From: Acidobacteriota bacterium
GTDB lineage: Bacteria; Acidobacteriota; Terriglobia; Terriglobales; SCQP01
Assembly: GCA_027459505.1 (NCBI GenBank)
Contig: DAIDIE010000029.1
Location: 62,001 to 126,000, forward strand
Direction: 5' to 3'
DNA: 64,000 nucleotides
Position 1 is the stretch's first letter. The number at the start of each line of letters is the position of its first letter. Below, in pieces: positions 48,265-53,082 of the stretch. Below the pieces are notes generated by a model. The model was not told where the DNA came from, did no database searches, and saw nothing but the letters and a program-made list of their open reading frames with translations. Made by a program: the position numbers and the translations under genes.

Positions 48265-48551
48265 TCCGGGGGCCGGGGGAGCGGCCCGTAAAGACCTGTT
48301 ATCGTACCATTGGCCTCGGCGGGCAGCTAGCAGGTGTTTTCCCGGGGCAAGCCGCTTCCGGGCATCGAAAAGGTTTGGCTTGTAACCCTGTCTGCTTTGA
48401 GAGCGTTTTCAAGGGCAGGATGAGCAGCGGGGCACAAATTTGTTGGCCGTTGGGGAGCATGCCGGGGACCTCATCGGCGGCGCGTTCAAGACGCGACCTG
48501 GAAGGGCGCCAGGCGCAGCGCAGATGCCGAGAACGGGAAGGCACCACCTTA
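48265..48551. other. Intergenic region between scpA and the sigma factor gene
   Basis: About 285 bases between divergent genes. It must hold both promoters, but no pair of boxes stands out and no gene is visible. Confidence 0.4.
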
Positions 48552-49241
48552 ATGGACGAAAATGGCGCCACTGAGCAAGTCTCTTCAGCCTTGAATCATG
48601 CGGCGACGGCTGCGCTCGATCAGCAACGGCAAGCGCGGGAACAGGCCCGGGAACAGGCCAAAGATGAGGTTCAAAAGCGCGACCTGGAACTGGTACAGCG
48701 CGTCCAGCATGGCGATCAGACGGCTTTTGAGCAGCTCTACTATCAATACCAGGGGCCGGTAGGACGCATGGTGGCCCACATGGTGCGGGATCCGGAGCAA
48801 GTTTCCGATCTGTTGCAGGAGATCTTCGCCAAAGCCTATTTCGCCCTGCCCAAGCTGGACGCCGAGACCCCTTTTCGGCCGTGGCTGTTCCGGCTCGCCA
48901 GCAATCACACGATTGACTACTTGCGGCGGCAAAAGCGGCGGCCGCAGGTTGCCGACCCAGGTCCGGAGCAGGAATGGGACCTGCCAGACCAGTCCCATCC
49001 CGACGCTCTACATCGGGTACTGACGCGCGATCTTGCACGTAAGCTGCTGAATTCTTTGAAGCCTCGGGATAGAATGCTGCTGGTTTTGCAGGAGTTTCAG
49101 GAATTGAGCCTGGAAGAGATTGGGCAGATCATGGGCATGCGGTTACCGGCGGTGAAGGTCGGGCTGTTTCGCGCCCGCAAGCGCCTGCAGGAGCATTACC
49201 GGGACTTGCCCGCAAAGCATGTGGGACGGAGGAGCCGATGA
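48552..49241 (+). CDS. ECF sigma factor
   Basis: A 229-residue sigma-70-family protein of ECF type. Region 2 (about residues 50-115) has FEQLYYQYQGPVGRMVAHMVRD, DLLQEIFAKAYFAL and RLASNHTIDYLRRQKRR. Region 4 (about 150-215) has LKPRDRMLLVLQEFQELSLEEIGQIMGM. A Gln/Ala/Glu-rich leader of about 45 residues precedes region 2. It overlaps the anti-sigma gene by four bases (ATGA), so the pair is co-translated and likely responds to envelope stress. Confidence 0.9.
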   Translation: MDENGATEQVSSALNHAATAALDQQRQAREQAREQAKDEVQKRDLELVQRVQHGDQTAFEQLYYQYQGPVGRMVAHMVRDPEQVSDLLQEIFAKAYFALPKLDAETPFRPWLFRLASNHTIDYLRRQKRRPQVADPGPEQEWDLPDQSHPDALHRVLTRDLARKLLNSLKPRDRMLLVLQEFQELSLEEIGQIMGMRLPAVKVGLFRARKRLQEHYRDLPAKHVGRRSR

Positions 49242-49684
49242 CGCAACAATGTGAGCTTTTCCGCAAATGGGTGGACGCCTTCAACGGCGAAATGGAGATG
49301 CCTGAAGCGCTGCGCAGCCATGCTGCTGCCTGCCCGCCTTGCCGCGAGTACGTGGAACTGCAACGCTTTGCCAAACAAGTGGTGCAAAGTGCGGAAGTGA
49401 GCCTTCCCCAGGTGCCAGTGAGCGCGGTTTGGGCGCGCATCCGCCGTGAACGGGAACTGGGATGGGAGCCGATGCTGTGGAACAGTTTTCGCCGTCTGGT
49501 GCCCATCTTTACCGCCGTGACCGCGCTGCTGCTGATCGCCGGTGGGGTGGCGCTACGCTCGACCGCGAACCAGCCTACCGTCTATGAACAGGCATGGCGT
49601 GGCGCGCAGCCAGGTACGGTCGCCGCCGTGGCGGCGCCGGATAGCGGCGCCCAGACCATTGGAGACTTGCTGGTGAGCAGGTGA
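49238..49684 (+). CDS. Anti-sigma factor with zinc-finger-like N-terminus
   Basis: 148 residues. The N-terminal anti-sigma domain has the HxxxCxxC signature (SHAAACPPC near 27-35), then one membrane helix (LVPIFTAVTALLLIAGGVAL near 87-106) and a short periplasmic tail. It should hold the upstream sigma factor at the membrane until a signal releases it. Confidence 0.88.
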   Translation: MTQQCELFRKWVDAFNGEMEMPEALRSHAAACPPCREYVELQRFAKQVVQSAEVSLPQVPVSAVWARIRRERELGWEPMLWNSFRRLVPIFTAVTALLLIAGGVALRSTANQPTVYEQAWRGAQPGTVAAVAAPDSGAQTIGDLLVSR

Positions 49685-49718
49685 GGAGAGGGTTCGTCGG
49701 AAGAACCCAATTGATTTT

Positions 49719-50105
49719 ATGAATCGTCACAGCACAGGAATTCTCGTTCTGGTCTTCGTCCTGGGCCTCTTTGCCGGGGCAGGCGGAGGCATGCTGCTGG
49801 CGCCTCACGTTCATCACCGGCCGAGCATGCAGGATATTCACCGCCGGTTTGTCAGGAAAATGCAAAAACGTCTGGACTTGACCCCACAGCAAACCCAGGC
49901 CTTTGACGCCATTTCCACCGAGTTGATGCACCGCTTCGAGGCTCTGCATCAGCAGATCCAGCCGCAGGTGGCCCAAATCCGGCACGAGGAAGGGGCCAAG
50001 TTCCGCGCCGTGCTCAATCCCGAGCAGCAGAAAAAGTTCGATGCCTGGGTGGCCCGGCAGGAGGCCAGGCACCACCATCCGCCTCCGCCGCCTGCCGGTC
50101 ACTAG
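49719..50105 (+). CDS. Spy/CpxP-like periplasmic protein
   Basis: 128 residues with an N-terminal signal anchor (LVLVFVLGLFAGAGGG) and helical periplasmic part (RRFVRKMQKRLDLTPQQTQAFDAI, LNPEQQKKFDAWVARQ) of the Spy/heavy-metal-sensor (LTxxQ) type. The tail is His/Pro-rich. The position directly after a sigma/anti-sigma pair suggests that it feeds back on envelope-stress sensing, as CpxP does. Confidence 0.75.
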   Translation: MNRHSTGILVLVFVLGLFAGAGGGMLLAPHVHHRPSMQDIHRRFVRKMQKRLDLTPQQTQAFDAISTELMHRFEALHQQIQPQVAQIRHEEGAKFRAVLNPEQQKKFDAWVARQEARHHHPPPPPAGH

Positions 50106-52289: not shown

Positions 52290-52889
52290 CTACCAGCGCC
52301 GGCGCACCAGTTGCGCGAACGACGCTCCGCTGGGCGCCGCGAACACGCACAACTCGCTTTCCAGTCCAATCTTCACGCCGCGCACCAGTACCTGTTCGTC
52401 CACTCGTGGCGAAAGGAGTTTGGCCGCTTGCAGCCGGCGCAAAAGCGGCGCAATGTTTTCGGCGCGCATGATGATCTCGGCCTGCACCAGCGGACGTGTG
52501 GCGCTGGCGCCATCGGCATAGAGCAGGGTTACCGCCGCCTTCTCGCACAAATGAGGCTCGATGTTGCCGGGGCAGCAAGCCAGTTCCTTCAGGGTGCGCT
52601 GCACTTCGCCGGCCCCCAGTACGATTGCTACCCAGCGCAGGTCGACTTCACTGTGGCGCGCGGCAGGTTCGCACCAGACGTTCCAGGGTGCGAGTTGCTG
52701 GACCAGCGGATCCAGTGAGCAACCCGGGCGGGGGGCGAAGCGGAGGGATTCAATCCCGGTGGGGCCCGGCGCGACCATAGTCTTCGCGCGAGTGTTCGCG
52801 CGAGTGTTCGCGCGGCGAGCAGGGCTGGGTGTGCGGCGAGCGGGGACGAGAAGTTGTTGACAGTGAGCTTCAGAAAGAGCAGTTGCCAC
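52290..52889 (-). CDS. Unknown protein controlled by a SAM-II riboswitch
   Basis: 199 residues from GTG 52889, which has GGAG seven bases upstream and begins 26 bases after the riboswitch terminator; ATG 52778 is a shorter alternative. The N-terminal 45 residues are low-complexity and include a 12-bp tandem duplication (NTRANTRA, 52783-52806). The rest (WVAIVLGAGEVQRTLKELACC..., EIIMRAENIAPLLRRLQAAK, KIGLESELCVFAAPSG) is a mixed alpha/beta pattern with several cysteines. I do not recognise it, and it is not MetA, MetX, MetZ, MetE, MetK or AhcY, the usual SAM-II targets. Context predicts a role in methionine, SAM or sulfur metabolism or transport. Confidence 0.6.
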   Translation of the reverse strand: MATALSEAHCQQLLVPARRTPSPARRANTRANTRAKTMVAPGPTGIESLRFAPRPGCSLDPLVQQLAPWNVWCEPAARHSEVDLRWVAIVLGAGEVQRTLKELACCPGNIEPHLCEKAAVTLLYADGASATRPLVQAEIIMRAENIAPLLRRLQAAKLLSPRVDEQVLVRGVKIGLESELCVFAAPSGASFAQLVRRRW

Positions 52890-52914
52890 GCGCAATCTCC
52901 GGTTCAGGGCGGGC

Positions 52915-52941
52915 AAAAAAAATCCCGCCGGAATAGGCGGG
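52915..52941 (-). terminator. Riboswitch-controlled intrinsic terminator
   Basis: On the minus strand CCCGCC-TATTCC-GGCGGG followed by A and eight T, 22 bases after the aptamer's GCTAAA. GGCGG at the aptamer's 3' edge (52964-52960) can pair with the CCGCC of the terminator's 5' arm, giving a mutually exclusive antiterminator. Confidence 0.85.
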
Positions 52942-52962
52942 TGCTGTCTTTCTAGCTGTCCG

Positions 52963-53032
52963 CCTTTAGCACTTTTTTTAACGTGGTTGCAAGTAGCTGG
53001 TCCGGTGCTCCGGCGCCTAAATCACTCCACGG
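52963..53032 (-). ncRNA. SAM-II riboswitch aptamer
   Basis: The minus strand reads CGTGGAGTGATTT (53031-53019), an L1 insertion, CTTGCAACCACGTTAAA (52993 onward), then GTGCTAAAGG (ending 52963). This is the SAM-II consensus: P1 is CGTGG/CCACG (five perfect pairs, 53031-53027 with 52986-52982), with the conserved UGAUUU, the UUGCAACCACGUUAAA joint and the 3' GCUAAA that closes the pseudoknot. A candidate pseudoknot pairing is AGCAC (53009-53005) with GTGCT (52972-52968). L1 is longer than in the compact examples. S-adenosylmethionine binding should favour the downstream terminator and turn the gene off. Confidence 0.82.
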
Positions 53033-53052
53033 TTGGTTTCCCAACTGCCCTG

Positions 53053-53082
53053 AGGCTACGGCAGGTTGAGGCCACCTGTCAA
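53053..53082 (-). promoter_or_regulatory. Promoter of the SAM-II riboswitch transcript
   Basis: On the minus strand a perfect TTGACA (53082-53077), 18-base spacer and TAGCCT (53058-53053). It is placed so that transcription starts about 10-15 bases before the aptamer. Confidence 0.65.

Follow-up and report, generated by a model that had tools for sequence, protein, structure and literature searches.

Proteins of the PII/CutA superfamily are mostly small soluble ligand-binding regulators, and the PII-superfamily proteins among them integrate nitrogen and carbon status. Genes for nitrogen regulatory protein PII can themselves lie behind a structured RNA, the glnA motif (PMC2864571), and a PII-like trimeric architecture with short T-loops has been described for phage SAM lyases (Svi3-3, T3 SAMase) and for SAM-AMP lyase (PMC7877911, PMC12255297). 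Among riboswitches, SAM-bound SAM-II forms an H-type pseudoknot (PMC5352136), and in Sinorhizobium meliloti metZ lies behind a SAM-II attenuator at which SAM is predicted to promote termination (PMC9373788), while for the long-loop form of SAM-II only Bacteroidetes and marine samples have been given as sources (PMC2864571). The locus described here, on the minus strand of a 64,000-nucleotide stretch of acidobacterial DNA (the window), joins an RNA of an ordinary riboswitch class, but of unusual subtype and in an unusual host, to a gene that probably encodes an undescribed PII-like protein. No report tying a SAM riboswitch to a PII-like gene was found in the open-access literature searched.

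Class and anatomy of the leader RNA

Read on the minus strand from 53082 to 52897, the leader opens with TTGACA and a hairpin, goes on with CGTGG, TGATTTAG, a further hairpin and CTTGCAACCACGTTAAAAAAAGTGCTAAAGGCGG, and closes with a terminator and its T8 tail and then GGAG (Table 1). The SAM-II core elements, including TTGCAACCACGTTAAA and GTGCTAAA, are all found on this strand, as a first-pass annotation of the same DNA had claimed for the CGTGG...TGATTT consensus set. The hallmarks of long-loop SAM-II, namely P1, GATTT, TTGCAACC, GCTAAA and a UUGC/GC(U)AA pseudoknot, are likewise present, the exact pseudoknot pairs being those that we take to hold for SAM-II in general.

Table 1. Features of the leader and the gene that it precedes (positions are those of the window).
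Feature	Position	Strand	Basis or detail
Candidate promoter	53054..53082	-	TTGACA 53082-53077, 17-nt spacer, weak -10 GTAGCC 53059-53054
5' hairpin GTTGG-GAAA-CCAAC, abutting P1	53032..53045	-	Folding
Predicted SAM-II (long loop) aptamer	52956..53036	-	RF01726 match
P1, CGTGG 53031-53027 with CCACG 52986-52982	52982..53031	-	Alignment of six leaders and folds
TGATTT	53024-53019	-	Sequence
Conserved L1 TGATTTAG	53024-53017	-	Alignment of six leaders
Extra in-loop hairpin CCGG-AGCA-CCGG	53013-53002	-	Folding
Pseudoknot strands TTGC 52992-52989 and GCTAAA 52970-52965	52965..52992	-	Invariant in 6/6 sequences
Proposed switching sequence GGCGG	52964-52960	-	Complements CCGCC of 5' terminator arm 52941-52936
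Intrinsic terminator CCCGCC-TATTCC-GGCGGG and T8	52915..52941; stem 52941-52924, T8 52922-52915	-	
Shine-Dalgarno GGAG	52900-52897	-	7 nt ahead of GTG at 52889
Regulated gene, 199 aa, GTG start at 52889	52290..52889	-	ORF; relatives 28-34% identity
Conserved C-terminal domain, likely PII/CutA-like ferredoxin fold	52293..52658	-	AlphaFold2, Foldseek, VIA-align

In a focused scan of 401 nt, the leader scored 38.7 bits (E 5.4e-6) against RF01726, the long-loop SAM-II family, and in the 4.06-Mb genome from which it comes it was the sole RF01726 match at E<=1 (E 1.3e-5); the leaders of relatives scored 32.8-39 bits. The gathering cut-off of RF01726 (44 bits) was not reached, and with Rfam gathering scores as thresholds the window as a whole yielded no match. 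RF00521 (SAM_alpha), the family against which the first-pass annotation had proposed to check the leader, gave 24.2 bits under a cut-off of 36 and matched no genome among 41 relatives; it was dropped as the leader's family, so that the proposed SAM-II riboswitch stands as to class while its subtype becomes the long loop of RF01726. Matches of snoZ256, sroD and Hrs1 at the leader site had chance-level Rfam scores and were set aside. Since a gathering cut-off is a search threshold and not a structural feature, SAM-II identity is claimed here from the conserved core together with comparative evidence, and the assignment of the leader to SAM-II aptamers of the long-loop subtype, with SAM binding predicted from sequence, is well supported.

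The RNA comparison comprises six sequences from four lineages. Across the six leaders, little or no change is seen in P1, TGATTTAG, TTGCAACC, the A-rich L3, GCTAAA and GGCGGACAG, whereas the 5' hairpin, the hairpin in the P1 loop and the terminator vary in sequence between lineages but keep their hairpin form, each lineage having a hairpin of different sequence at the same 5' site abutting P1. Taken individually, the 5' hairpin, in-loop hairpin and terminator fold only modestly better than shuffles (p 0.01-0.43 for the 5' hairpins). At the third pair of P1, UA, GC and GU all occur, and P1 covariation, over five distinct rows, is not significant (64/500 shuffles reach the observed level). A terminator occurs at the equivalent place in all relatives' leaders, and the intrinsic terminator with T8 tail that had been reported downstream of the aptamer is indeed there; the GGAG site lies 14 bases past the T-run rather than the 11 originally given. 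The reported TTGACA promoter holds for its perfect -35 box but has a poor -10, and the TTGACA/GTAGCC pair went unscored in a consensus promoter scan; promoter-like -10 sequences in relatives (TATATT, TAGAGT, TATAAA) lie at a similar distance, 34-38 nt ahead of TGATTT.

SAM-II elements elsewhere in Acidobacteriota

When RF01726 was searched in 396 genomes of the phylum, further matches of ~23-41 bits were obtained, nearly all below the cut-off. The good-scoring matches that were inspected precede genes for homocysteine methyltransferase (metH), PLP enzymes of Cys/Met metabolism (metY/metZ type) and SAM synthetase (metK), as identified by Pfam, from which it follows that SAM-II serves SAM metabolism in Acidobacteriota as a working element; the Rfam cut-off misses most, and thereby hides many, of its copies in this phylum. 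As most of these elements ahead of met genes are also sub-threshold, the sub-threshold score of the present leader weighs little.

Several further arrangements were noticed. A number of other Acidobacteriota (L046-L051, L069-L073) carry two SAM-II elements, each ahead of a metH-like homocysteine methyltransferase gene. An RF01726 element of 48.6 bits, above the gathering cut-off, in a genome of the same class (L045 in G633) precedes a gene whose secreted product has a CarboxypepD_reg domain at its N terminus; such domains are typical of TonB-dependent receptors, and this gene possibly encodes a SAM-controlled uptake receptor. In the present genome and its family (L079, L074, L082), a SAM-I riboswitch (RF00162, 73-84 bits) precedes the gene for a threonine synthase-like PALP-family enzyme, and two SAM riboswitch classes are therefore used in the same genomes.

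Linkage of the RNA and the gene across genomes

Within the family, six of 14 genomes, in three genera, carry both RNA and protein and eight carry neither; the element was still not found when the RNA model was run again on these eight with laxer filters. Extending the search to 298 genomes of the order, the protein is encoded in exactly six and the RNA occurs in exactly those six. Specifically, the covariance model R1, built from the alignment of the six elements, scored 94-104 bits in these genomes and <=23 bits elsewhere among the 298 (weak matches of 15-23 bits were left out of the counts), while the protein profile matched the same six of the 298 genomes with E values of 1e-63 or lower and, besides these, gave one marginal partial match inside a 486-residue frame. 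Weak protein matches in G030, G364, G582 and G608, which cover 41-72 profile positions inside open frames of 422-750 residues, were dropped. As both models were built from the six, their high self-scores are expected, and the informative part of these results is that no other genome scores and that independent searches agree, single-sequence and Rfam searches having picked the same six genomes.

In 6/6 genomes the RNA lies directly upstream of the gene. Flanking genes mostly differ between genera, and RNA and gene form a conserved unit because, in spite of this, their co-occurrence is exact and they are always adjacent. The suggestion that orthologues, too, sit behind SAM-II elements thus meets no exception in the sampled order (both present in 6/298 genomes). 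The six genomes share ancestry and therefore do not represent six independent events; the strength of the linkage is that the unit has been kept although the proteins share 28-40% identity and the gene neighbourhoods have been reshuffled. On this evidence, it is well supported that aptamer, terminator and gene are linked.

No sulfur gene that could name a target was found beside the locus in the compared neighbourhoods, and the naming of a target from neighbour genes was rejected, the neighbourhood not being conserved. Sigma-factor, short zf-HC2-like and LTXXQ-family genes lie in a row at 48375-50105, and a sigma-factor-like homologue near the element in G001 (L041) as well is the only hint of a shared neighbourhood.

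The regulated protein and its predicted fold

Relatives of the regulated gene were found in five other genomes. Comparison of G001 with G006, the pair on which the estimate rests (the three close genomes of genus g3 are too similar to tell), gives a dN/dS of 0.28 with 47/34/90 differences at the three codon positions, and it is well supported that the 199-aa frame is a real gene under purifying selection. Its description as a gene of unknown family also stands, as Pfam, NCBIfam and PHROGs yielded no convincing family match; the matches to fructose-1,6-bisphosphatase, Colicin M and nbaC, at E 0.03-1, agreed on no domain and were discarded. No conservation is seen over the N-terminal ~80 residues, most of which have low model confidence. 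A short direct repeat of CGCGCGAACACT units lies in this part of the gene (52780-52830, minus strand), followed by an in-frame ATG that could be an alternative start.

AlphaFold2 models of the 199-aa protein and of its 146-aa homologue from G007 both contain a C-terminal domain of E-H-E-E-H-E order plus short strands. The beta-alpha-beta-beta-alpha-beta core that marks the PII superfamily at fold level is present in these predicted and divergent models, with pLDDT ~75-93 over most of its length. Nearly all top structural neighbours of the two models belong to the PII/CutA superfamily. Among the best 50 VIA-align rows for the G007 homologue, which run from Z 9.0 (GlnK1) to 8.1 at rank 50, all are PII, CutA1 (or a CutA1-based design), DUF3240, PstA or an insert of a NIF3 protein that is itself described as PII-like; for the 199-aa model the neighbours are DUF3240, CutA1, CPII, PII and SbtB, with Z 7.9-6.6. 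These values are middling for both models, and Foldseek returned no match at E <= 0.001 for either, so that the fold is assigned because the structural neighbours are uniform and not because of the height of Z. Sequence comparisons point weakly in the same direction: PII proteins headed a PDB profile search (E 0.24), hhalign against ten acidobacterial PII proteins gave a score of 21.7 (probability ~7%; best of 100 column shuffles 16.1), and the VRxR end of the domain's last strand, equivalent to IRIR in PII, is invariant. Taken together, these data make a PII/CutA-like ferredoxin fold likely, and where the first-pass annotation had envisaged a metabolism or transport protein, the models of the conserved domain instead resemble the PII/CutA superfamily. 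A sulfur- or SAM-related role is one that we infer from the riboswitch.

The six members nevertheless differ from true PII proteins. None matches Pfam P-II (PF00543) up to E 10, and their sequences lack both the T-loop motif YRGxEY (uridylylation loop) and the B-loop motif TGxxGDGK, which are present in the true PII proteins of relatives and of the same genome, where a separate canonical PII is encoded. The T-loop of the model is a tight, very short YADG turn. Canonical PII (PF00543) was not matched in G002 and G007 of genus g3, the assemblies of which are possibly incomplete.

A proposed switching mechanism

In the SAM-bound form of SAM-II, the GCUAAA strand pairs with UUGC. In the present leaders an invariant GGCGG comes right after GCUAAA, and CCGCC is found in the 5' arm of the terminator in 6/6. 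We propose that the leader is a SAM-responsive transcription attenuator. At low SAM, GGCGG would be available for pairing with CCGCC in the 5' terminator arm and the gene would be transcribed; upon SAM binding, GCUAAA would be locked in the pseudoknot with UUGC, a pairing that would withdraw or constrain the adjoining GGCGG and so release the terminator, and synthesis would stop, as expected of an OFF switch. The product, a small PII/CutA-like protein expected to form a trimer, would be produced under SAM shortage, and would probably be a ligand-sensing regulator of a methionine- or SAM-cycle enzyme or transporter. By folding, the antiterminator (5-7 bp) comes within ~0-3 kcal/mol of the best form in three lineages, and in the fourth (genus g3) the terminator is favoured over it by ~8 kcal/mol; the antiterminator sequence is invariant, hence no covariation signal is possible. 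In metH-type elements it is the L1 loop that complements the 5' terminator arm (GGGGC and variants up to 9 nt), and it may play a role equivalent to that of GGCGG. The OFF direction and the trimer, ligand and target of the protein are what this scheme would predict, and the explanation as a whole is one in which we place moderate confidence.

Alternative readings

Because the aptamer-terminator link consists of alternative structures inferred by folding alone, and the terminators are energetically strong by default, the leader might instead be an ON switch, with protein made at high SAM, or act on translation or otherwise than at termination. The studied SAM-II elements, however, repress at high SAM (PMC9373788, PMC5352136), the terminator sits between aptamer and start codon, and the complementarity of metH-type L1 loops to the terminator arm, up to 9 bp, fits an OFF attenuator; we consider such a switch quite improbable. 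Scores under the Rfam cut-offs could also be read as those of a degenerate relic or chance match ahead of a constitutive gene, but over four lineages the core nucleotides have not changed, in contrast to the diverging hairpins and terminators around them, and RNA and protein co-occur exactly, which leaves that reading barely credible.

As to the protein, the ferredoxin-like fold is widespread, the uridylylation site and B-loop signature of PII are lacking and profile similarity to PII is weak. All of this would suit a domain outside the PII superfamily, ACT-like or of some other ferredoxin-like kind, that serves a metal or structural role and has come to look like PII by convergence. Against this stand structural neighbours that are uniformly PII/CutA, together with PII-like NIF3-type inserts, and not ACT, and a PII-like VRxR strand end in 5/6 members (VRxR/VRRR in 6/6); convergence seems unlikely, though it keeps appreciable weight. 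A PII-fold enzyme of the SAM lyase or SAM-AMP lyase type, degrading SAM or a SAM derivative, is suggested by the very short T-loop, which is like that of the lyases. Yet T3 SAMase, tried as a relative, has no sequence similarity to the protein, and at the end of the short T-loop there is no conserved Glu, the aligned residues being RQERF, RLRHF, RIRHI or ASATR (the catalytic position was taken from PMC12255297 and compared by sequence and predicted strands only). Behind a SAM-OFF switch, moreover, a SAM-degrading enzyme would be made at lowest SAM. That SAM lyases are not among the best 50 VIA-align rows of either model says nothing either way. The lack of the Glu and of a T3 SAMase match, together with the SAM-OFF logic, makes a lyase very improbable and therefore favours a ligand-sensing regulator made at low SAM.

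Significance and comparison with known systems

It can be suggested, tentatively and as a possibility we rather doubt, that the six members represent a new PII-like signalling family under SAM-riboswitch control, which conveys a SAM or adenosyl-metabolite signal to a methionine-cycle enzyme or transporter. If so, they would be a sulfur and one-carbon counterpart of GlnB (nitrogen) and SbtB (carbon), with expression set by SAM in every sampled carrier genome, and a first indication that methyl/sulfur status, too, has its PII-type protein. The riboswitch offers a direct hypothesis for ligand screening with SAM, SAH, MTA and adenine nucleotides.

With known long-loop SAM-II RNAs (RF01726; PMC2864571) the leader has in common P1, the GATTT loop, TTGCAACC, the A-rich L3 and GCTAAA; it differs in its acidobacterial host, its extra 5' and in-loop hairpins, its GGCGG switching sequence and the gene behind it, which is PII-like and not one for a methionine enzyme. 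The core motif and the aptamer-terminator layout are also those of RF00521, as ahead of S. meliloti metZ (PMC9373788), but RF00521 has a short CGGCC/GGCCG P2 where the present leader has a long loop. The protein resembles PII-like signalling proteins (SbtB, CPII, PstA, DUF3240) and CutA1 in length, topology and predicted ferredoxin-like core, and differs in its lack of a family model match, its YADG-turn T-loop, its long B-loop region and its SAM-II control. With the PII-fold SAM lyases and SAM-AMP lyase (PMC7877911, PMC12255297) it shares a PII-like fold, a short T-loop and a SAM context, but neither a conserved catalytic Glu nor a sequence match, and no phage or CRISPR association was seen. 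Finally, the glnA motif RNA is likewise a candidate riboswitch controlling a PII-superfamily gene; it belongs to another RNA class with another ligand, and the gene that it precedes encodes a canonical PII, in contrast to the non-canonical PII-like protein of the present locus.
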